A model generated the notes under the pieces. The model did not search any database and had not been told where the DNA came from. It was given only the letters and a program-made list of their open reading frames with translations. This document shows, in pieces, positions 47,721 through 63,097 of a DNA stretch of 64,000 bases (position 1 is its first letter; each line of letters opens with the position of its first letter). A program made the translations under genes and the position numbers. The DNA is from Oscillatoriophycideae cyanobacterium NC_groundwater_1537_Pr4_S-0.65um_50_18 (lineage in GTDB: Bacteria; Cyanobacteriota; Cyanobacteriia; Elainellales; Elainellaceae). Location: positions 248,001-312,000 of the forward strand of contig JACQYI010000033.1 of the NCBI GenBank assembly GCA_016208305.1. Direction: 5' to 3'.

Positions 47721-50700
47721 CTAACAAACAAGACTAATTTGAGATCCTTGCTCCGTTTTATAGACCTCAATCCGGGTTTGGAATGCCTCTTTGAGGTGAG
47801 GCATGTGGGTGACGGTGAGAATGCAGGCAAAATCGGATGCGATCGCATTAATAGCGCTAATCAGGCGATCGCATCCGGCCTCGTCTTGGGTACCAAACCC
47901 TTCGTCAATCACCAAAAGCTGGAGGGCAGTTCCCGATCGCTGAGCCAGCAGCCGCGCTAGCGCCAGTCGAATGGCAAAGTTGATCCGGAAGGCTTCGCCG
48001 CCTGAGTAAGTTTCATAGGGTCTTGTCCCCTGGACATCGCTAATCAAAATGTCTAGCGTATCGATCAGCTTTCCAGCATCCCGTTGAGAAGCCCCTCGAC
48101 GGGCGCGCTGGGTGACAAACTGCACATGGAGTTGGTTAGCGCTCAGTCGTCCCAAAATCTGGTTGGTTTCGGCTTCGAGCTGGGGCAGCAGATTTTCAAT
48201 CATCAAGGCTTGCAGGCCATTTTTACCGAAGGCTTGCGCCAGTTCTTGATGAATTCTGAGCTGGCGGCGCGTTGTCTCAAGCTGGGTGCTCAGGGTTGAC
48301 TGCTGGGTTTTGAGGGCTTCGAGCTGTTGGCGCTGTTGCTGGAGGCGACCGAGGTGAGAGAGGCGATCGTCAAGCTGTTGGCGCTGTTGCTGAAGCTGCT
48401 GTTCTAAATCAATCAAGGCTGAACTGGCATTGGGGGCTTGCCGGATTTCTTGCTCTAAACGTTGGACTTGAGCCGACAGCGCCTGAAGGCTTTGCATGCG
48501 GCTAACCCAGAGTTCATGGAGTTCATGAACACGCTGCTGCACCTGGGGATAGTGCTGTTGGGCTTGCGTGAGTTCGCGATAGCGCAATTGCCAGGGTTGG
48601 GCTTGACGCAAAGACTGCCGTAGAGCCGTATGGTGTTCTAGGCTGTAGCCGATCGCCCCTAGTTGCTGAGTTAATTGCTCAATTTGCTGTTGCAGAGGCG
48701 ATCGATCTAGATGAGAGAGTTGCTGTTCGAGCTGGGCGAGGGCAGATTCCAGCGCAGGCTGACGCTCGGCAATCTGCGCCTGCCGCTTCTGGGCTTGCTT
48801 GATTTCGGCCTGCTTAATTTCGGCCCAGCGCCAGCGATCGACCTGTCCCCTAGCTAGCGCATGGTCTTTATCGTCGTAGTTAAATTGGGCGAGACTCTGC
48901 TCTAAAAGCCGCAATTCTTGATGCAGTTCAGTCGCATAGTCTTGCTGATGCAGCGATCGCTCAATTTCGGCCTGCTCTGCGGCAATTTGCTGCAAGCGAG
49001 CCTGATTCTCAGTCGCGCCCTGCAACTGCTCCTGCAATTGGCCTCTGCGCTCTAGCAGAGCATTGTACTGAGCCAGCTCTTTATCTAACTCGCGATATTC
49101 CTGGCGCAAAATTTTGATTTCGCGATCGGAGGTGGTCAACTGTTCGCGGAGCACCCAAATCTGGCTCAAGGTGTCTTCATGCTCAGCCCGATGTTTTTGC
49201 AGCACAAGCTGCCAGTGGGGTTCATCCAGAGGGCGATCGCATAGCGGGCAGGGAGGATAAGCGTCGGAGGGAAGAGAGGAGGACAGCGTTACCCAAGCTT
49301 CTCCCCCAGTCGTCGGTTCGGAAATTCTTTCGGCGCGATGCTCGGCTAAGTGCTCCACCAAGTGCTCCACCAAAAGCTCGCCTGCACCCACGGGCTGCTG
49401 CTCTCGACTCACTTCCTTTTGCAACATCAAAAGCTTGTGGTCTAGCTCTGCCAGGTTGCGTTCGCAATCGCGCTGCTGTTCTTGAAGTCGCTCCAAAAAG
49501 GTGCGCCGCTCAATGCCTTTATCCCGCACTTTTTCTTGATAGCTGCGCCGCTGTTCCAGGTGCTCAATTTGTTCGGCAAGCACAAGCACAGCTTGTTGAA
49601 GCTGCGGCTGCCGCTGTTGTTGGGCTTCGAGCGATCGCCGGATGGATTGAAGCTCCTCTAGCCGAGCAGCCAGCCTCGCCTGAGCGCGATCGAGCTGGAG
49701 CTGAATCTGCTGACGACGTTGCAGCAGGGGGGTGGCCTGCATTTGCAGTTGATCTAGCTCAGCCAGTCGGGTTCTGGCTTGCCGCAATTGCTCTAACCCA
49801 GCCTCGATCTCGCTAGATTTTGAGAGGGTTTGCTGAATTTCTTGCTGCTGCTGATGCAGCGAATCTAACTGAGTCTGAACCTGCTGAAGTTGCTGAGTCA
49901 GGTGATGCGCTTGCTCAGTCTTTTGCTGCTGAAGCTGGTGGCACTGAGCTTGCACAGTTTGATGGGTCTGAAACTTAGCCGCCTGGATTTCTTCTTCCTG
50001 CTGAAGCTGCTGGAGGCGGACGTACTGAGCCGTGATGGCTGATTGATCTCGCAACAGGGATTCCAGATCTTGCTGCTGCTGCTGAGCTTTGGCAAGGTCT
50101 TGCTGCAAGCGGCGACAGTCTTGAGTGAACTGCTGCTGCTGCTGCTGCTGAAAGCCAAGCTGCTGCTGCCAGGTTTGCTGCTGCTGTTGTAAAGCCTGAA
50201 ACCGCTGCTGCTGGAGGCGATCGCGATGATGCTGTTGCTGCATCTGGGCGATCGCCGTTGTTAGCTGAACTTCTTCATCGGCTAGCTGGGTCGCCTGCTC
50301 TAGCTGAGCAGCCATTCCCTCTAGGTTGCGTTCTAACAGGGTCAGTTCGGCCTTAAACTGACGGGCTTTGTCTTTGGCTTGCTCTGCCAACTCATCGTAG
50401 CGATCGAGCTTGAGCAAATCGGCCAAGATCTGTTTGCGATCGGTGGGGCGCTTCAGCATAAACTCATCGGCTCTGCCCTGGCGCAGGTAGGCGGAGTTGA
50501 TGAAGGTGTCATAGTCTAGCTTCAGGTGCTGCAAGATAATCTGCTGCGTTGCCCGCACGCCCTTTTCAGTCAGCGATCGGAATCCGTCGGGGGTCTGAAT
50601 CTGGAACTCTAAGGTGCTAGCTTGCCCTCGGTAGCGGCTGCGAATGATTCGATAGGTCTGCTGGCGACATTGAAAGATGAAATCAATCAGGGCTTCGGTG

Positions 50701-50894
50701 CTGCCCATGTGAACCACATCATCTTCGGTCAGCGCCCGACTTTCACCCCATACCGCCCAAGCGATCGCCTCTAGCAAAGAAGATTTCCCAGCCCCGTTGG
50801 CACCACAAATGCAAGCCACATGAAGCCCTCGGAAGTCTAGCGTTGCCTCCCGGTAGCTTAGAAAGTTTTTCAGCGTGAGTTGCAGCGGTATCAC
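47721..50894 (-). CDS. sbcC: DNA repair exonuclease subunit SbcC
   Basis: 1057 residues, normal length. Walker A GANGAGKSSLLEAI (about 31-44), a long coiled coil with the zinc hook CPLCDRPLDEP (around 545) at the apex, the signature YSGGEAFRINFAIRLALARL, and Walker B LQLLVIDEGFGTQDE. With SbcD it cleaves DNA hairpins and blocked ends. SbcD is not next to it. The coiled coil is very Gln-rich; a (CTG)7 tract encodes seven Gln (50130-50150). A Glu/His-rich insert LVEHLVEHLAEHRAER lies near the hook. Confidence 0.95.
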   Translation of the reverse strand: MIPLQLTLKNFLSYREATLDFRGLHVACICGANGAGKSSLLEAIAWAVWGESRALTEDDVVHMGSTEALIDFIFQCRQQTYRIIRSRYRGQASTLEFQIQTPDGFRSLTEKGVRATQQIILQHLKLDYDTFINSAYLRQGRADEFMLKRPTDRKQILADLLKLDRYDELAEQAKDKARQFKAELTLLERNLEGMAAQLEQATQLADEEVQLTTAIAQMQQQHHRDRLQQQRFQALQQQQQTWQQQLGFQQQQQQQFTQDCRRLQQDLAKAQQQQQDLESLLRDQSAITAQYVRLQQLQQEEEIQAAKFQTHQTVQAQCHQLQQQKTEQAHHLTQQLQQVQTQLDSLHQQQQEIQQTLSKSSEIEAGLEQLRQARTRLAELDQLQMQATPLLQRRQQIQLQLDRAQARLAARLEELQSIRRSLEAQQQRQPQLQQAVLVLAEQIEHLEQRRSYQEKVRDKGIERRTFLERLQEQQRDCERNLAELDHKLLMLQKEVSREQQPVGAGELLVEHLVEHLAEHRAERISEPTTGGEAWVTLSSSLPSDAYPPCPLCDRPLDEPHWQLVLQKHRAEHEDTLSQIWVLREQLTTSDREIKILRQEYRELDKELAQYNALLERRGQLQEQLQGATENQARLQQIAAEQAEIERSLHQQDYATELHQELRLLEQSLAQFNYDDKDHALARGQVDRWRWAEIKQAEIKQAQKRQAQIAERQPALESALAQLEQQLSHLDRSPLQQQIEQLTQQLGAIGYSLEHHTALRQSLRQAQPWQLRYRELTQAQQHYPQVQQRVHELHELWVSRMQSLQALSAQVQRLEQEIRQAPNASSALIDLEQQLQQQRQQLDDRLSHLGRLQQQRQQLEALKTQQSTLSTQLETTRRQLRIHQELAQAFGKNGLQALMIENLLPQLEAETNQILGRLSANQLHVQFVTQRARRGASQRDAGKLIDTLDILISDVQGTRPYETYSGGEAFRINFAIRLALARLLAQRSGTALQLLVIDEGFGTQDEAGCDRLISAINAIASDFACILTVTHMPHLKEAFQTRIEVYKTEQGSQISLVC
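50130..50150. repeat. (CTG)7 trinucleotide tract inside sbcC
   Basis: Seven uninterrupted CTG units (CAG on the coding strand, a poly-Gln run). Nearby CTG triplets continue it. Such tracts form hairpins and slip; this one is inside a gene for hairpin-cleaving nuclease. Confidence 0.9.
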
Positions 50895-51099: not shown

Positions 51100-52917
51100 C
51101 TATAAATCGAGCGATCGGTAGTCTGCAATGATATTGAGAAAATCTTCCCGTCTGATTTTTAGCGTTTTGCGGTTGTCTCCATATCCGGTGTAAAACCACT
51201 CGCAGGCGTGATGGGCAATGGCACTATCCACAAATTTCAAGATAGGAGCCTCTGGCTCAAATCCAAAAGGGGCAATTCCCCCAACCGGAAAGCCCAGTTT
51301 TAGAACTTCTTTCTCGGTCGCAAATTTGATTTGATAGGCTCCAACTCCAAATAATTCTGCCACCTTAGCTTTATCAAATCGCTTCTCAGACTGAATCAAA
51401 ATGACAACATACTGATCAATCTTTTTATTATGAAAAATTACTGTTTTAATCATGCAGTTGGCAAAGTAACCAATCTGCTTTTTTACATCTTCCATAGACA
51501 GTACAGGATCATGTTCTAGCACTTCATAGCGGGCGTTGAAGGCGCTTAAAATTTGCTCAACGTTGAGGCGGCTATTGGCTTCGGGTTGAGGTTTTTGAGC
51601 TATCACGGTGACGTAATAGCCATTCTGCCCTTCTCGATTTTCAGCCAAGGTGCGATCGGCTGATACAAAAGAGGCGCGGGCAAATTCATTTTCGAGTAAG
51701 CTATTGGGCAAAAGCGCCATAATCATGGGATAGGTCGTGACGGTATCAATATTAAAAATCTTATTGATTTCCCCTTCTACACCTTCATCAAAAAGCTTGC
51801 AGAAAATGTTAAATCTGGTTTTAGCCGTTAGATAAACTTCTAGCGAATGATTTTCTTTATCAACCTGAGCAGCCAGGGCTGAGTCACGCCAGCTAGGCGT
51901 CACATTGAGTGTAATAGCATTGGCGTTATAGAACGAGATAAAAACATAGCCTCCTGGCTTCAGCCACTCATAAAATCGTCGCAGCATCGTTGCCGTATCT
52001 TCGATAAAGCTGCCCATACCAAAGCTGGCAACTACCAGATCACACTTGCCGTAAAACTGTTGCTCATCAATTAACTCTTCATATTCAAAATCATTAATAG
52101 CGAAATAAATATTGCGAATGTCCTGCTTGCGTTTGACTGCATTGGCCTCCTCGATCATGTTAGAAGAAAAGTCGTAGCTATAGACATCTTCAAAGTGTCG
52201 AGAAAGGACAAAGCTGTGTCGTCCGGTACCGCAACCGATATCTATAGCAATGTCCCTTTTGCCATCCATCTTGAGTTTTTTAATCAACAGATTGAGCTTG
52301 TCGCTCTCAAACTCCATCGCTTCGTAGGTCGCAATTTTAGATTTTCCGTAGAACTTGTTATAAATGGGCGCACTAATTTCTGAAAGCACTAAGTGAAACA
52401 TTTTTCTTAGGCGTTTGATTAACCGTTCAGAAATAAGGTTGACCCTTAAGGAATAAATTAAGTCGCCACCTTCGATCGGGATAAAATAGCTGATAGATTT
52501 TGTTTTATTGATTTCTTCAACCGTGGGAATATCAATAAAAATTAGATCAGCCGTAATCTTTTTCAAGAGCTGAACATTTTCTGGCTGAACTTCTACGGTA
52601 GACCACAGTACAATTCGGTCAATGTTGTCCTTATATTGCAGGCGTTCGATCGAACTCTGAAGCATCCGAGAAAACTCAGTTTCCTGATAGAGATTAAAAA
52701 TAATCAACATGCGATAAACCGGAGATTTAAAAATCTCTGGGAATTCCTCATAGGGTTTGTCAAACTCTAGGAGAATGCAGTTTTCTGAATCTAGCGATAA
52801 CAATCCGCTAGCGCTGACAAACTGATAGGGACGAATTTCAAAAAATTTGCCAATCAAGCCTTCAACTTCAAACTTGGTCTTGATGGTTGAGACGATATGA
52901 GGAACGTTTATTTGCAT
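51100..52917 (-). CDS. class I methyltransferase fused to YbaK/ProX-type tRNA-editing domain
   Basis: 605 residues from the ATG at 52917 (an upstream in-frame start at 53037 would add 40 with no family look). Residues 1-215 are unrecognised (EGLIGKFFEIRPYQFVSASG, then RMLIIFNLYQETEFSRMLQS). Residues ~220-355 are a Rossmann SAM methyltransferase (AIDIGCGTGRHSFVLSRHFE, DVYSYDFSSNMIEEA, then FISFYNANAITL). Residues ~455-605 are a YbaK/ProX editing domain (EVLEHDPVLSMEDVKKQI, CMIKTVIFHNKKIDQYVVIL with Lys491, GGIAPFGFEPE). YbaK domains strip wrong amino acids from tRNA. The pair in one chain suggests a methylated or edited aminoacyl-tRNA. The gene is AT-rich and free of GCGATCGC, unlike both neighbours. 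Confidence 0.8.
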   Translation of the reverse strand: MQINVPHIVSTIKTKFEVEGLIGKFFEIRPYQFVSASGLLSLDSENCILLEFDKPYEEFPEIFKSPVYRMLIIFNLYQETEFSRMLQSSIERLQYKDNIDRIVLWSTVEVQPENVQLLKKITADLIFIDIPTVEEINKTKSISYFIPIEGGDLIYSLRVNLISERLIKRLRKMFHLVLSEISAPIYNKFYGKSKIATYEAMEFESDKLNLLIKKLKMDGKRDIAIDIGCGTGRHSFVLSRHFEDVYSYDFSSNMIEEANAVKRKQDIRNIYFAINDFEYEELIDEQQFYGKCDLVVASFGMGSFIEDTATMLRRFYEWLKPGGYVFISFYNANAITLNVTPSWRDSALAAQVDKENHSLEVYLTAKTRFNIFCKLFDEGVEGEINKIFNIDTVTTYPMIMALLPNSLLENEFARASFVSADRTLAENREGQNGYYVTVIAQKPQPEANSRLNVEQILSAFNARYEVLEHDPVLSMEDVKKQIGYFANCMIKTVIFHNKKIDQYVVILIQSEKRFDKAKVAELFGVGAYQIKFATEKEVLKLGFPVGGIAPFGFEPEAPILKFVDSAIAHHACEWFYTGYGDNRKTLKIRREDFLNIIADYRSLDL

Positions 52918-53195
52918 CCGAGTTGCAGAAAATGGCGATCGCCAGGTGGGCCTATCTAAACCCATCATCAGAGTTGACTTGGATTTATGCAACTGACTTG
53001 CACCATATCTAGCGCATTTTTGGGATGCCAGGAGCATAACTAGCTACAGCATCTATAGCAGGTGTCCACAGCAGGCATCTGGGTGATGCTGATTGTAGCG
53101 ATGAATTTTATGGTGAGACGCGAGCCTGCCCCTATAAAATTCATCGCCGGATCAAGCTGTGCTGAAATCTGTATCCGCTATCAGAGGCGATCGAC

Positions 53196-55844
53196 TTAAA
53201 CTGAGCTGAGAACTTGTTGCACCCTTTGCACTTGCCGAGGCGCATTCATCTGTTGAAATAGGGCGATCGCCTTCTGTAGGCAATTGCGGCTCTCGGCTAA
53301 CTCGTTCATTTGTCGGTAGGTGAGGCCAAGCTGATAGTTGACCTCGGCCAGATCCCCTTTGGCTTCGATCCGATCGAGCAGCCGCTTGGCCGCTAAATGA
53401 TTTGCGACTGCGCCTTTGAAATCCTGCCGCGATCGACAAATCATAGCCAATCCGTTGAGCGCTTCAGCTTTGACCTGCGTATAGCGGCTTTGCTCAGCGT
53501 AGTTCTTAGCCAGCTCATACATTTTCTGCGCCTGCTCTGCATCCCCAATATTGCGCAGCGTACCGCCCAAAAATAGCAGGCTGTAGCCCCGACTCCAGGC
53601 GCTATAGCCAATGGCGGTATATTCATTTAACACCCGCTCCACCAGTCTCAGCGCTTCTGAGGTGCGCCCATTCACCGACTTGAGCAGCGCAAGGCAAAAC
53701 CAGCAGCCCACTGCATACATATGCCATTCAGTATTTTCGGCCTGAGCATTGGCTTGCTCAAACAGGGCTTCGGCTTCTGGCAATTCCCAAAGGCTGAGTT
53801 TGCACAAGCCAATATTGAACAATCCCTGAATCTCTAAATCTTTGAGCTGAAAGTCGATCGCCATATCTCTCGATTTTTGATGCGCCCCGATCGCAGCTTG
53901 CAGGTTGCCCGTCAGCCAATAGAGGTCACCTAAAATGTTGTAGAGCTTGCACAGGGGATATCCCGGCTGGAGGCGATCGAGAATGCGGGTAATGGCATTG
54001 ATCATGCGCTGAAGCAAGCCTAAGCGATAAAACGAGATTCCTAAAGGCTCACCTTTTTGCCACTGACAGTCGCGTCCATAGAGAATGACGGCAGCCGCCG
54101 AATCCCAGTCTTCAATCTGGACATAGTGGCGATAGGCTTCGGCAGCCATCATGGCATCTTCAACCGTGGCGATCGTCGTCACACGCTCTGTCCAAAAGTC
54201 AGCCACTTTACGGTTTGTCAGATCCCACTCTTGAAAGTTTGACCGCAGTATTGCCAGCGCCTTAGCCTGAATCACCGGATGCAGTCGATATTCTTCGTTA
54301 TCGACCTCTACCAAAAACAGATCCCGCAGAAACCGGACGATGCTGCGATGTTTGAGCACTGGCACATCCCAAAGCAAGCAATAGAGAACCTCTACAGGCA
54401 CAGTCGCCACATCCTGAAAGCGGCAGCAGCCCATCCGGCAGAGAAGCGTATAGGCTTCGGGATAGATTTGCTGAAGACGGGTGAAATGGCTAGAAACCAA
54501 ATCTTCTAGATCGGCAGTGTCTAGTAGATTGGTCTGATGATCGTGCCAAAAAGCCTCTATATCGCCACCATAGTCTACGCTGATGGCGCTAGAGAGAATG
54601 CTCATGGCTTTGGCGTTGCCGCTGTAGGCTTGGTGCATGGCGGCCAGAGCCGGAGAGTCAGTCGGCAGACTGCGGCTGCCAAAAAACTGTCGCCATGCCG
54701 TTTCATCTAGCCCTGAGAGGGTATAGGTTTGTGGGGCGATCGTCGGTTCATGCATTGGCTCTCGGCTGGTGATCAGCGTGACGCAATCCAATACCGGATC
54801 GGCCAGAACTTCCAGCAAGGCCACATAGCCTCGATGAGCTGGCAAAATCTGACCCTTGCGATCGAGGGCAGGCTCCAGGTTATCGATCAAAACTCCAACT
54901 TTGCCTAGCGGATTCATCGGGCTAGATTTGGCTTGCAGGTGCCGCCGCAACTGCTCTAGAGAGGCCGCAAAGGTTCGTCCAGCCTCTTCTTCAAAGTATT
55001 TCTGCAACCAGGCCAAAACCACCCCTTCAGCAGAGGTAATATTTTGAGTTTCCTTGGCCATCCAGCACTCCAGCACCATATCAAAGTTAGCTTGACTGAA
55101 GTACTGCTGAGCCAAGACCGTTTTGCCAATGCCACCCTCACCCAGAATTGTGATGATTTGGGCTTTTTCATCGACCAAGCGCTGGAGATCGGCGATCGCC
55201 ATATCGCGTCCGACAAAACTCAAGTCGTCTTTTGCCTCTGCTTGCAGCTCTTGAGCCTCTGACACATCGGCTGGCTCTAGTTCTGCCTCGGAATCACCAT
55301 AGCCAACCACCTCTTTCCAAGGCAGCTCTAAGACATCGCAGCAGGCTTGAAAGGTTTTGATGTAAATCGGCTTGCCTTGAATGAAGCGTTGCCAGGTTTC
55401 TGGGGCGATCGGCTCTACCGGATTCTGCCCCACCGGATTCGGCGATTCACGCGCCAAAAATTCGGCAATTTGTCTATCCTTACCAGATCCCTGAATGCGC
55501 GATCGCTGTTGGATCGCCTGTCGAACTTTGATCAGTCCAATATAGGAGGCAGTGAGCAAAAAAGCAGGCTCGACCAGCAGCGTAATATTTTGGATGCCAA
55601 TGACATCGACTAATTCATGGGGAGAGATATCAACAGGCTGGTCACAGCGCGCAAACCAACGTGAGCCTTTGAATCGAACTCGTCCAGGTTTACCCGGCTG
55701 GATGATTTGCTCCACAATGGCCTGGCCGCTGTAATAACCCAAATTTGCCGGGAGAGGCGATCGGGGGGTGGGGACATTTGGAGAGCTGTCAGTTGTGGTA
55801 GAAGTCTGAAACGACTGAAAAACATTAGAGAAATTGAAGTTCAT
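53196..55844 (-). CDS. STAND/NB-ARC NTPase with N-terminal NfeD-like OB domain and TPR tail
   Basis: 882 residues. Residues ~35-95 (SGQAIVEQIIQPGKPGRVRF, then HELVDVIGIQNITLLVEP) match an NfeD-like OB fold. Residues ~105-190 form a helix-turn-helix-like module (APETWQRFIQGKPIYIKTFQ, then ACCDVLELPWKEVVG). The NB-ARC core has Walker A GEGGIGKT (235-242), Walker B VGVLIDNLE and the sensor TLITSREPM. A winged helix and ~250 residues of TPR-like helices follow. It is a signal-responsive ATPase of the STAND class. It lies 159 bases before the downstream methyltransferase-YbaK gene in transcript order, so co-expression is possible. Confidence 0.88.
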   Translation of the reverse strand: MNFNFSNVFQSFQTSTTTDSSPNVPTPRSPLPANLGYYSGQAIVEQIIQPGKPGRVRFKGSRWFARCDQPVDISPHELVDVIGIQNITLLVEPAFLLTASYIGLIKVRQAIQQRSRIQGSGKDRQIAEFLARESPNPVGQNPVEPIAPETWQRFIQGKPIYIKTFQACCDVLELPWKEVVGYGDSEAELEPADVSEAQELQAEAKDDLSFVGRDMAIADLQRLVDEKAQIITILGEGGIGKTVLAQQYFSQANFDMVLECWMAKETQNITSAEGVVLAWLQKYFEEEAGRTFAASLEQLRRHLQAKSSPMNPLGKVGVLIDNLEPALDRKGQILPAHRGYVALLEVLADPVLDCVTLITSREPMHEPTIAPQTYTLSGLDETAWRQFFGSRSLPTDSPALAAMHQAYSGNAKAMSILSSAISVDYGGDIEAFWHDHQTNLLDTADLEDLVSSHFTRLQQIYPEAYTLLCRMGCCRFQDVATVPVEVLYCLLWDVPVLKHRSIVRFLRDLFLVEVDNEEYRLHPVIQAKALAILRSNFQEWDLTNRKVADFWTERVTTIATVEDAMMAAEAYRHYVQIEDWDSAAAVILYGRDCQWQKGEPLGISFYRLGLLQRMINAITRILDRLQPGYPLCKLYNILGDLYWLTGNLQAAIGAHQKSRDMAIDFQLKDLEIQGLFNIGLCKLSLWELPEAEALFEQANAQAENTEWHMYAVGCWFCLALLKSVNGRTSEALRLVERVLNEYTAIGYSAWSRGYSLLFLGGTLRNIGDAEQAQKMYELAKNYAEQSRYTQVKAEALNGLAMICRSRQDFKGAVANHLAAKRLLDRIEAKGDLAEVNYQLGLTYRQMNELAESRNCLQKAIALFQQMNAPRQVQRVQQVLSSV

Positions 55845-58006: not shown

Positions 58007-60541
58007 TCAATGGAGCACTTTCAGCAGATGCTTAATTTTGTCGGCCTGCTGTTCGGCCAAATGCCCCGGAAAAGCCAGCTCGATCGCCAGATGACCCCGA
58101 CGGGCTGAGCCAGAATCGATCGCTTTGATTTGAGCAATTAGCCGAGTGGGCGGATCGTTAGGATGCTGACTCAGCAACAGACCCACCGGAGGCTGATTTT
58201 TTGCCAATTGATCCAGGTGGGGTAGCGACTGCGCCAATTCCACTTGCAGGGCAGATGAGCTGATGTCGGTGGCAACGCCCGTATAAAACTGTCCTTCCCA
58301 GTAGACTTGGGCGGCCGCCTGAATATGCTTACGCACAGGCGGAGTTGGCGCAGGTTCCAGGCTGCGAAACACCCGAGACAACCCTGTCAGCAAAAAGCCC
58401 AGAGAAGAAAAAGGGCGATCGACTTCTGTGCGCTGTTGGCTATACCACTCTTCTACATCCGAATACAGCACCAGCACCAGGGCATCCGATTGGGCAGGGG
58501 TAAGATCGACAAAATCGATCGCTAGCAAGACCTGAGTGTCCTGCATCGGCTGCACGCGGGTAATTTTGCCGTTGACTCTGGCGCGAGTCCCCGAATCACC
58601 GATTAACTCTAGCTCTACCCAGTCAGGTAGGTTAGGCCAGCTCTCTAGCAAAACCCGCGCCCCGCTTTCGCTAACATCGAGCGTTTTGCCCTGGCAGACC
58701 GGATCAATGCTGTGAATCAACGTCGTCAACTGGCGGTGCAAACGGTGGGTGCGCCGGAGCTGCGGCTGCTCTAGCGCCACCAGCAGGGCTGTAGCCAGCA
58801 GCGCTAAGTTAAACAGCGCCCACAGGGCGTTAATGACAACGGCTTCCTGGTTTTCGGGACGCATGACCAGCCAGAAGGGCACCGCCATCAGCGAGATTAC
58901 CAGCAGCGCCACCATGAGTACAGACACCCGCGACGCATTCCAATTGAAGCTGCGCTGGGTAACAGATACGCCTTTTGCCGTGACGTTGAAGGTACCCATT
59001 TTGGGATTAATCAGCGCCAACAGCGTTACCAGTCCCTCTTGAAAGGCGATCGCATATTCAAACACTTCGTTCCAAAACGAGAACCGTACTGTCTTATTAG
59101 TGATGTAGTTAGCATTCATCGCCAGAAAGATGTGCGGCAACGCGTAGGCCAGGGTTTCGATCCCTAACCCGCGCACCAGGTTAATCCCAAACACGAGGTA
59201 CAGCGCTGGAGCCAGGGCATACATCAGACGGGGAAAGCCAAAGAAAAAATGGAACGTAGCGGAGAAATAGCAGAGTCGTTGGGGAAAGGTGAGGTGCAAT
59301 TTGCGATTAAACAGCGGATTTTCTAGCCGCAAAATTTGCGCCATACCGCGTGCCCAGCGCACCTGCTGCCCAATATAAGAAGAGAACTGTTCGGGAGCCA
59401 GTCCGGCCACCATAATTTTGTCGTAATACACCGACTGATAGCCGCGAGAATGCAGCCGCAGCGAGGTATGACAGTCTTCCGTGACAGTCTCTACCGCAAT
59501 GCCGCCCACTTCTTCCAGCGCCGATTTGCGTACTACGGCAGCGGAGCCGCAAAAGAAGGTGGCATTCCAAAAGTCATTGCCCTTCTGGATGACTTTATAG
59601 AACAGCTCGTTGTGAACTGGAACCCGTCCCTGCGTTAGCAAATTGCGCTCGAAGGGATCAGGATTATAGAACCAGTGGGGCGTTTGGACGAGAGCAACCT
59701 TGGGATTGAGAAAAAAGCCGACCGTCTGCTGAAGAAATTGTCGAGCCGGGATGTGATCACAGTCGAGAATCAGGATCAAGTCGCCCTGTGTTTGATGCAG
59801 CGCAGTGTTGATGTTGCCTGCTTTAGCGTGATCGTTATTGTCACGCACCAGCAGCGCACAGTCGAGTTCTGCACACATCTGGCTCAAAAGCTCACGACGC
59901 TCTGGAAACTTACGTCCATCATCCAGCACGTAAACCCGTTTTTTCGTCGCCGGATAATCGATCGCCATTGCCGCCATTGCTGTTTTGCGCACGATCGCCA
60001 CATCCTCGTTATAGGTGGGGATGTAGATATCGACCTCAGGCCACTGCTCTAGCGGAATGTTGGCCAAACTCACCGGGTAGCGATCGCGCAGCTTCAGCGT
60101 CTGGAAGTAAGACAGCATTAGCGTGGCGATCGCATACAGCTCGGCAGCCAGCAGCAGCAGGCTAAAAAAGCCGCTAATCCAGCTGTCCAAATTGAGGGTA
60201 TAGCTGACGCGATAAAACAAATAGCGCAGCGTCGTGACGATACTCAACCAGGCCAGCAGCAAATGCAGATATTCGCTGATGCCCTGCTGAGCCTGATGCT
60301 GCTCTTGGCGAATCATCAGCCAGCTCACCAGCACCAAGACGCATCCGGCGATCGCCTGTTGCCAGAGGCTCAGCGGCGTAATGATCAGCGGAATCGACAT
60401 CGCCATCAGCAGCAGGATGATCCAAAACAGCTGCCATTTGCCAATCCAGGGCATGATTTGCTCGAAACGGTCAGGCAGGCGCATGACGCGCTGCAACCAC
60501 CAGGGCGATCGGCCAGATTGAACAGGGGGAATGCTGGTCAT
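58007..60541 (-). CDS. bcsA: cellulose synthase catalytic subunit (UDP-forming), with PilZ
   Basis: 844 residues. Eight or so membrane helices. The GT2 motifs are all present: DDG (207-209), DCDH (260-263), TED (354-356), QQVRW (392-396). A PilZ domain follows near residue 600: RRTHR (RxxxR) and DVSESG (DxSxxG), the c-di-GMP contacts. A second PilZ-like block near residue 750 (IQAAAQVYWEGQFYTGVATD, then ISSSALQVEL) lacks the glycine. It polymerises glucose from UDP-glucose at the inner membrane. Its ATG directly follows the bcsB stop (TAAATG). Confidence 0.95.
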   Translation of the reverse strand: MTSIPPVQSGRSPWWLQRVMRLPDRFEQIMPWIGKWQLFWIILLLMAMSIPLIITPLSLWQQAIAGCVLVLVSWLMIRQEQHQAQQGISEYLHLLLAWLSIVTTLRYLFYRVSYTLNLDSWISGFFSLLLLAAELYAIATLMLSYFQTLKLRDRYPVSLANIPLEQWPEVDIYIPTYNEDVAIVRKTAMAAMAIDYPATKKRVYVLDDGRKFPERRELLSQMCAELDCALLVRDNNDHAKAGNINTALHQTQGDLILILDCDHIPARQFLQQTVGFFLNPKVALVQTPHWFYNPDPFERNLLTQGRVPVHNELFYKVIQKGNDFWNATFFCGSAAVVRKSALEEVGGIAVETVTEDCHTSLRLHSRGYQSVYYDKIMVAGLAPEQFSSYIGQQVRWARGMAQILRLENPLFNRKLHLTFPQRLCYFSATFHFFFGFPRLMYALAPALYLVFGINLVRGLGIETLAYALPHIFLAMNANYITNKTVRFSFWNEVFEYAIAFQEGLVTLLALINPKMGTFNVTAKGVSVTQRSFNWNASRVSVLMVALLVISLMAVPFWLVMRPENQEAVVINALWALFNLALLATALLVALEQPQLRRTHRLHRQLTTLIHSIDPVCQGKTLDVSESGARVLLESWPNLPDWVELELIGDSGTRARVNGKITRVQPMQDTQVLLAIDFVDLTPAQSDALVLVLYSDVEEWYSQQRTEVDRPFSSLGFLLTGLSRVFRSLEPAPTPPVRKHIQAAAQVYWEGQFYTGVATDISSSALQVELAQSLPHLDQLAKNQPPVGLLLSQHPNDPPTRLIAQIKAIDSGSARRGHLAIELAFPGHLAEQQADKIKHLLKVLH

Positions 60542-63097
60542 TTAGGAATCTCCTGAGCTGACAACGCGGTTAATAAAGAGCTGTGACATGCTGTAGAGCA
60601 ACAGCGCCAGGATCACAATGCCCAGCGGCACCAAGTACCAGTTGTCTTGCAGGAAGAGCTGAAGGCGCGTTACCCAATCTGTATTCTCTAGGCGGCGCGT
60701 GGGCGCGGCTTGCAGAAACTCCATGTTGTAAGCGCTAGAGTCATACGCCACAGGATTGGCTCGGTTACGGCTGATCAGCAGCGTGTCTCCCTCCAGTCGA
60801 GAAAATAGCGGCTCTTGACCAAACAAATCTTGCAGATCTTGTAACCCCTGATCTGTCTGACCTGTGAGCGCCAGCAGCAAGCGATCGCTGTTCCAAGGCG
60901 ACACAATTTCTTTGACCATGCCTTCAGGATCAGGCAAAGCCTGCACTTGGCTACCGCCCAGCAGCCGCACAAAGCTGTCACCCAGATTAAGTCCGGCAGT
61001 TTCAAACGCTTCAGGGAAGGGGAAGCGATCGCGGGTGCCAATGCCGACTAGGTGGCTCTGGCTTTTGGCATCCGCAGGCAAATCTTTGGCGGCATAGACC
61101 TGAAGCTGAATCGCTTCTGAACGGCTGAGCCGACCCATGCGATCGCTAAAGGCAATCAGCGTCTTTAAGTCGGCAGGCTTGGGGTCATCTGGCAAGACGA
61201 CGATCGTATTGGAGAGATCTTGGGGAGCCGTCACCGGAAAGCCCGTTTTGAGCAGCTTCAGATCCGGCAACTTCACCACATTGTCTCGCACCATATCAAA
61301 TCGGCTATCGCTATGCAGCGTGCCCCAGAGCTGCCGATCGGCCACCAACCCGCAAGATCCGGCATTTTGGGGTTGCAAAACAAAATGCACGCCTAATCGA
61401 GAGTCGGGCTTAATCAGCCTTTCGGGCAGCTCCACGTTAAACGACTCTCGACCGCCATTGGTCGAAGTCAGCCGCTTAGCACCGATCGTGACATCGTCAA
61501 GCGTCACCTCGATCGCTGAGCTACGCGGATTCACCTGAGGGCTATAGCTATAGTTAAGCGTGGCGGTGCTGCCTCGCAAAAAGCGATCGTCGGGCAGGGC
61601 ATGAAAATCAATAATGATCGGCAAGGTTTTGCTGCCATGCACCGTCACTTCTTCAAACGGTTTGCGGTTGCGCATCAGCAAATCGTTAAGCTGAAACCGT
61701 TTTGCCGTCGGCAAATAGCCCGACCAGTCGCGTGGGTTAGGCGAGGGCACCTCGGACAGGGTGGATACGGTCAAGGCTTGTCCAGCCCCAATTTCGCGAT
61801 CTTTGGTCTGCACCAAAAACTGTACGGCTTTCAGTACGGCAACATTGGAGTTTCCAGTGGCCACCAGCACAGGCACACCGCTATTTTTCACCGTCGTCAG
61901 CATCAGCACCCCCACATCGTCAGGGAGCGGCGCTTTGTTGCCATCGAGAATCTGGCCATTTTTGACGGCGTAGGGCAGGGTTAGCTGGCTGAGGGCAGGC
62001 TGCTCGGTCGGCGTGCCCACAATTACCAGCTTCTCGCTGGGCTTGACCGCCGCCAAATTATTGACAAGGCGGGTATCCAGTGGCCGAAAATCGACGATGC
62101 GGGCGGCAGAAGCCTGAAAACGGGCGATCGCCGTTAGCCAGCTACTGCTCACCGTTTTGGGTTGCAGATAGCTCAACTGATTGGCATCGAGGCTGAGGTT
62201 ATCTAAAAAGGGAAAGGGATAGCGGCTGAAATTAAGCTGTACGGGCTGCGGCCGATACTCAAACAAAATTTTAGAATCGGGCAAGATTTCCGTCCACAGG
62301 GTCGGATCGGCAGCATTGGTGCAGTTTTCAGAGGTCTGTTGCTCTGCCAGCATCGAAATTTCGTTGTAGTCCTGAATCAGGTTTTTCGGAATTTCAAACG
62401 TGGCTTCTGCGACCCGTGAATTGGGGCGATCGAGCTTGACGCTGCCAATGCTGGTATCGTTGACCCGCAACGTTAGGTGAGACTGCTCAGGCAGCAGCGA
62501 AGGCGAATGCTGGAATCGCACCACTGCTTTGGCAGAAGCAATCTGCCAGTTTTGCGGACGGGTAAACCCCAAACGGCTCTCGGCATAGACCCCCTCTAGC
62601 CGCAGTCGATTGCCCACCACAGGGCTGCGCGTAAACTCCAAAACATACGGCAGCAGCGGCGATCGGGCAGGGCGGGGCGACTGCGCTGCGCCAGCACGAG
62701 CGGGCGGGCGATTCTGGGCAGCCGCAGGCGCACTCCCTGACTGAGGGGCGGGTTCAGAATAGGCAGGTTCAGAATAAGCTGGTTCAGAGTAAGCAGGTTC
62801 AGAATAAGCTGGCTCTGGCTGATAAACAGGCGGAGCCGCAGGCGCAGGCGGCAAAGCCAACTCTCGAATGACCTGATTTTCCTGCCTTTGGAGGCTGCCA
62901 TCTGACTGGGCGCTCAGTCGAGGGGCAAAGCCAAAGCTAATCCCGGCAACGCTGAGCAACCCAATCAAGGCATAGATCGGCCATCGCCAAGACGATCGGC
63001 GTGAAACAGAATGAGATCGATCCGCTGAAGAACTCCGATCGGCGGAGGTTCGGTGAATGAAACGGTCAGAAAACCAGTGACTCAGAAAACGCAACAT
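60542..63097 (-). CDS. bcsB: cellulose synthase regulatory subunit BcsB
   Basis: 851 residues. A basic N-terminal segment then a membrane helix (PIYALIGLLSVAGISFGFAP, about 40-59), a proline-rich spacer with four EPAYS repeats (95-114), and a long beta-rich periplasmic domain (RLRVEGVYAESRLG-like, LDDVTIGAKRLTSTNGGRES, LPAVLPDD-like stretches). The C-terminus has one membrane helix (WYLVPLGIVILALLLYSMSQ) that contacts BcsA. It guides the glucan through the periplasm. It is downstream of a TPR gene and immediately upstream of bcsA. Confidence 0.93.
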   Translation of the reverse strand: MLRFLSHWFSDRFIHRTSADRSSSADRSHSVSRRSSWRWPIYALIGLLSVAGISFGFAPRLSAQSDGSLQRQENQVIRELALPPAPAAPPVYQPEPAYSEPAYSEPAYSEPAYSEPAPQSGSAPAAAQNRPPARAGAAQSPRPARSPLLPYVLEFTRSPVVGNRLRLEGVYAESRLGFTRPQNWQIASAKAVVRFQHSPSLLPEQSHLTLRVNDTSIGSVKLDRPNSRVAEATFEIPKNLIQDYNEISMLAEQQTSENCTNAADPTLWTEILPDSKILFEYRPQPVQLNFSRYPFPFLDNLSLDANQLSYLQPKTVSSSWLTAIARFQASAARIVDFRPLDTRLVNNLAAVKPSEKLVIVGTPTEQPALSQLTLPYAVKNGQILDGNKAPLPDDVGVLMLTTVKNSGVPVLVATGNSNVAVLKAVQFLVQTKDREIGAGQALTVSTLSEVPSPNPRDWSGYLPTAKRFQLNDLLMRNRKPFEEVTVHGSKTLPIIIDFHALPDDRFLRGSTATLNYSYSPQVNPRSSAIEVTLDDVTIGAKRLTSTNGGRESFNVELPERLIKPDSRLGVHFVLQPQNAGSCGLVADRQLWGTLHSDSRFDMVRDNVVKLPDLKLLKTGFPVTAPQDLSNTIVVLPDDPKPADLKTLIAFSDRMGRLSRSEAIQLQVYAAKDLPADAKSQSHLVGIGTRDRFPFPEAFETAGLNLGDSFVRLLGGSQVQALPDPEGMVKEIVSPWNSDRLLLALTGQTDQGLQDLQDLFGQEPLFSRLEGDTLLISRNRANPVAYDSSAYNMEFLQAAPTRRLENTDWVTRLQLFLQDNWYLVPLGIVILALLLYSMSQLFINRVVSSGDS
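62756..62815 (-). repeat. EPAYS pentapeptide repeat (4 units) in bcsB
   Basis: Four 15-base units coding EPAYS lie in the BcsB linker at residues 95-114, continued by EPAPQ. Repeat-number variation here would alter the spacer length only. Confidence 0.9.

Follow-up and report, generated by a model that had tools for sequence, protein, structure and literature searches.

The window analysed here, a 64,000-nucleotide stretch of a cyanobacterial contig, carries at 51100..52917 on its minus strand a single uninterrupted frame of 605 codons plus stop, as the sequence-only reading had proposed in placing one intact gene there. Its product is a fusion of three modules in the order N-terminal part without recognised sequence (residues 1-205), class I SAM methyltransferase (approximately 206-445) and YbaK/ProX (INS) domain (approximately 450-605). 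The open frame runs 40 codons further upstream, to an ATG at 53037, but the start at 52917, giving the 605-residue protein, is favoured by alignment with the orthologues, which begin there; in one of them (locus L004) a stop codon is found a few codons upstream of the equivalent ATG. Upstream of the fusion gene lies a gene for a STAND (NB-ARC) NTPase of 882 residues (53196..55844, minus), in which Pfam recognised an NfeD-like segment at 43-93, the NB-ARC domain at approximately 210-308 and C-terminal TPRs. The syntenic neighbour downstream encodes an sbcC-like ATPase of 1057 residues (47721..50894, minus). A cellulose synthase pair, ie a glycosyltransferase with a PilZ domain and a BcsB-like subunit, was also observed in the window (58007-63097, minus). 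Rfam and tRNA scans of the 64 kb led nowhere, and the promoter and terminator scan gave no excess over shuffled sequence.

The same domain order was found in ten of the 36 genomes of the window's own family, which in this genome set is the whole order. Named carriers are Phormidium tenue FACHB-886 and the metagenome-assembled Synechococcales cyanobacterium C42_A2020_086. Full-length orthologues are 63-79% identical to the window protein. Their mismatches are distributed over codon positions 1, 2 and 3 as 0.28, 0.17 and 0.56, and dN/dS is approximately 0.07-0.21 where computable, most orthologue pairs being saturated at synonymous sites. As read from these alignments, purifying selection acts on all three parts of the fusion. 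Because of the full-length orthologues, the pattern of codon-position mismatches and the low dN/dS, a chance frame or a sequencing join is excluded for the window gene. That a sequencing error had joined two genes was a possibility raised in the sequence-only reading, and we regard it, or a pseudogene in erosion, as extremely improbable. A decayed remnant does exist in one relative, G397, where part of the N-terminal region persists immediately upstream of sbcC (L053 2229-2549, minus), but the full frame is common to ten genomes and is under purifying selection. In one of the ten, G395, the fusion is cut by contig ends into two pieces, and the STAND gene and sbcC lie on the same contigs as these pieces.

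Across the phylum, a sample of 386 genomes gave no other full-length match, the remainder being isolated methyltransferase or editing-domain matches. Searches of viral contigs and plasmids led nowhere, and no full-length relatives were found in phages. The genome-contig scan relied on exact peptides taken from a single sequence and missed known members, so relatives in other phyla may exist. The architecture is rare, conserved and unusual. It is also apparently undescribed: literature searches, with limited coverage of subscription journals, found no paper on a YbaK-methyltransferase fusion, which agrees with the earlier statement that no characterised enzyme is known to have this order.

No Pfam family matched residues 1-199, in keeping with the earlier description of some 215 unrecognised N-terminal residues. 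Searches with the N-terminal domain gave three weak, partial matches across the phylum, and a search of PDB sequences led nowhere. Modelled alone from the ten sequences, the domain had a pLDDT of 84.5 and a pTM of 0.80, with the element order helix-three strands-helix-strand-helix-strand-helix and a long helix at 153-190. The latter belongs, with its lead-in, to residues 141-205 (52303..52497, minus), in which 42% of the columns are invariant. For the alpha/beta domain proper (residues 1-140; 52498..52917, minus) the best Foldseek match in the PDB was EndoMS, at E=1.5e-3. Further matches included EcoT38I, more EndoMS structures, RPB5 and restriction-endonuclease chains, with unrelated ones mixed in and TM-scores mostly 0.2-0.4. 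The model topology and many of these matches agree on the alpha-beta-beta-beta-alpha-beta core of the PD-(D/E)XK fold, and we tentatively assign the modelled domain a restriction-endonuclease-like fold, given that E is only 1.5e-3 and the TM-scores are low. Of the catalytic residues D...(D/E)XK, the member alignment shows an invariant E51, but no conserved ExK or (D/E)XK and a variable D43; nuclease activity is therefore not expected, and an active nuclease at the N-terminus was set aside. Between the long helix and the methyltransferase, the G410 fusion (L051 7982-9973) contains a repetitive charged insertion of about 33 residues (KRDEKRDEK...), which by its position in the alignment marks a domain border.

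Profile search bore out both domain calls of the earlier reading and their order, each above its Pfam cut-off. The methyltransferase (51583..52302, minus) matched Methyltransf_31 at residues 223-357 with E=2.8e-15 (56.7 bits, cut-off 27). SAM motif I, DIGCGTG, lies at residues 226-232 (52222..52242, minus), with GCGTG and D226 invariant in all members; profile match and conserved D-x-GCGTG together place the domain among the class I SAM-dependent enzymes. Columns 206-445 are the most conserved of the fusion (47-49% invariant), and the segment 331-382 was poorly modelled in the full-length structure. The assignment of the methyltransferase to a particular activity is less direct. The best PDB sequence matches are phosphoethanolamine-type, ie small-molecule, N-methyltransferases. 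Foldseek also returned the latter, together with CmoM crystallised with tRNA (8joz), mRNA cap methyltransferases and others, and the best PHROG match (E=1.6e-12) is annotated as a tRNA methyltransferase. The best NCBIfam match was the OvoA C-terminal methyltransferase; this, CmoM, UbiG, BioC and other equivalogs, ie all 24 methyltransferase models among the matches listed, scored far below cut-off. The sequence matches to phosphoethanolamine enzymes and to OvoA would suit an enzyme of small-molecule or specialised metabolism, one which methylates an amine, amino acid or lipid head group and whose INS domain hydrolyses a non-proofreading aminoacyl ester, such as an aminoacyl-tRNA donor. The loci examined have no biosynthetic cluster adjoining the fusion, and we consider such a role quite unlikely.

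Editing domains are proofreaders which protect translation. The one in the fusion (residues 450-605; 51103..51570, minus) matched tRNA_edit, PF04073, at residues 469-594 with E=1.4e-15 (57.9 bits, cut-off 25.5), and this profile and Methyltransf_31 were both matched above cut-off in all ten members. K491, the lysine of MIKT (51445..51447, minus), is invariant and lines up with that of 8huz and 1wdv. It corresponds to the INS-superfamily catalytic lysine, strictly conserved in INS domains and represented by K45 of ProXp-ala (PMC10164551). The GGIAPFGF loop (residues 546-553; 51259..51282, minus) is invariant in the nine complete copies. Since both signatures are invariant, the editing site looks intact, as far as conserved residues can tell. 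The closest solved relative is ProX 8huz, by profile (E=1.7e-10) and by fold of the full model (Foldseek, 3.1e-10). Satellite phages Javan120, Javan121 and Javan97 were seen to carry stand-alone YbaK/ProX-like editing genes, 28% identical to the editing domain; in Streptococcus satellite phage Javan120 the gene lies between those for a DNA-binding protein and an integrase (L139 5998-6486).

The window's genome gave four PF04073 matches: the fusion, two short stand-alone INS proteins (open frames of 167 and 219 residues) and a fourth which is presumably ProRS. As two separate short INS proteins are encoded, the fusion is not the sole editor of this genome. A housekeeping YbaK was ruled out by these proteins and by the score against the YbaK/EbsC Cys-tRNA(Pro) deacylase model TIGR00011, 27.2 bits against an equivalog cut-off of 153.25. 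A more specialised form of quality control would be a diverged proofreader which clears a particular mischarged tRNA while the methyltransferase modifies that tRNA, the STAND link being incidental. The intact INS signature and the CmoM-like fold match are consistent with it. The separate editing proteins argue against it, and the patchy presence with losses (10/36) and the adjacency of the STAND gene at nine of ten loci suit a housekeeping function poorly; we hold this reading to be fairly unlikely.

The STAND gene, which was absent from the sequence-only reading, is the most informative context of the fusion. It stands directly upstream, on the same strand, at nine of the ten loci. In G416 its stop codon and the start of the fusion overlap (ATGA), and in G393 and G410 the pair has been kept together away from sbcC. 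In G404 each of the two lies on a contig of its own. The sbcC-like gene adjoins the fusion at seven of ten loci, but 32 of the family's 36 genomes have it, with or without a fusion gene, which gives it the look of a long-standing neighbour rather than a component. That it lies elsewhere in G393 and G410 weakens its candidacy further, and it is probably not part of the unit. STAND orthologues occur in all ten fusion genomes compared with, by our count, 16 of 36 overall (hypergeometric 3e-5, a value which ignores kinship and linkage). Solo STAND genes, ie without fusion, are found in G388, G390, G403 and others, and G397, with its remnant only, gave no STAND match at E<=1e-60. The STAND and fusion trees share the groups window+G404, G394+G393+G410 and G416+G392+G418, an agreement which would fit a pair inherited for the most part vertically and lost later in some lineages. 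Because the trees largely agree, the link may reflect inherited synteny as much as function. We conclude that the STAND NTPase is the probable partner of the fusion. Two irregular copies of the STAND gene were noted: in G418 an in-frame TAG splits it into two ORFs, with the fusion behind it intact (L050 6973-9665), and in G396 a copy whose N-terminus differs adjoins a separate 96-residue ORF resembling the NfeD-like N-terminus of the window protein (L101 6564-9517).

A partner of signalling type would also suit a regulatory protein, in which the INS domain is a non-catalytic module for binding a ligand or RNA. The substrate of its methyltransferase would be a protein or small molecule belonging to a STAND signalling pathway. 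In SadB, a regulator already known, the YbaK-like domain has no assigned function (PMC6543031) and is suspected of being such a module; SadB was also among the Foldseek matches. The invariant INS lysine and glycine-rich loop would not be needed in a purely structural module, and we find this explanation doubtful, if possible.

The reading we tentatively prefer, at somewhat less than even likelihood, is that the fusion protein works as an effector whose target is tRNA or aminoacyl-tRNA and which the STAND protein controls. Both enzyme domains exceed their cut-offs in every member, the INS lysine is invariant, and the separate short INS proteins mean that another editor is available. Also in its favour are the fold matches to CmoM with tRNA and to mRNA cap methyltransferases and the PHROG annotation, as well as the adjacency of the pair, preserved in G393 and G410 and reaching overlap in G416, the presence of a STAND orthologue in all ten carriers and the lack of a close match in G397. 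Against this stand the separate contigs in G404, the solo STAND genes, the agreeing trees, the phosphoethanolamine-type enzyme as best PDB sequence match, the poorly modelled 331-382 segment and the surroundings of the locus, which is set among housekeeping genes and not in a defence island. It is plausible that both halves act on one aminoacyl-tRNA. The TPR repeats of the STAND protein would sense a signal (stress or invasion), and the protein would then switch on or recruit the fusion protein. The editing domain might hold an aminoacyl-tRNA by its 3' end and hydrolyse the ester, with the methyltransferase modifying that tRNA or the amino acid it carries, and the N-terminal domain, a probably non-catalytic nuclease-like fold, could bind nucleic acid or the partner. 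The net outcome would be a controlled or emergency change of translation.

A narrower version of the STAND-controlled effector is a two-gene stress or immune system, whose STAND sensor switches on the deacylation and methylation of aminoacyl-tRNA and so stops or redirects translation. We rate it as rather unlikely, and literature searches gave no description of such effector chemistry in STAND systems. Any role in defence is hypothesised from the STAND partner and not from PADLOC matches. With PADLOC the methyltransferase part matched the mad2 model at E=1.7e-18. A 510-residue protein of G363 (L006 796-2328), whose N-terminal half appears GNAT-like and whose other half is a methyltransferase, scored 5.1e-27 on the same model. 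As this protein of another genome outscores the fusion, the match is unspecific, and the mad2 model can give false defence calls. Membership of MADS was ruled out by this control and by a locus without the mad gene set. The STAND protein had weak matches to defence NTPases; the match to Avs4 (PADLOC, E=0.003) covers only its NTPase stretch, and an Avs-type assignment does not hold. If the conserved fusion beside a STAND switch protein reflects what we suggest, editing chemistry may have been turned to the regulated control of translation, and the two genes form a small, clonable unit for testing such control.

Each part of the pair resembles a known system and departs from it. With the INS superfamily (ProXp-ala, YbaK, ProX 8huz) the fusion shares profile, lysine and glycine-rich loop, at approximately 25% identity to 8huz, but its domain sits C-terminal to a methyltransferase and fits no characterised subfamily. 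CmoM shares the class I fold (TMt 0.55 to 8joz), but on the CmoM equivalog model the fusion reaches 33.2 bits where 366 is the cut-off. Its methyltransferase also differs from CmoM and the rest of class I in being fused on both sides and in having a strongly conserved C-terminal part (346-445) outside the reach of the library models. SadB, a known regulatory fusion, likewise contains a YbaK-like domain, but has no methyltransferase and has HDOD as the partner domain. The likeness to MADS is confined to the methyltransferase part, through Mad2, and the neighbours are other genes. In the STAND/NTP-dependent conflict systems of multicellular bacteria, common in cyanobacteria, effector candidates are linked to the NTPase (Kaur et al. 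2020, PMC7159879; its main text contains no methyltransferase and mentions tRNA once). The pair described here shares with them a STAND NTPase and a linked effector candidate, but here the candidate has a gene to itself and combines editing with methyltransferase domains.
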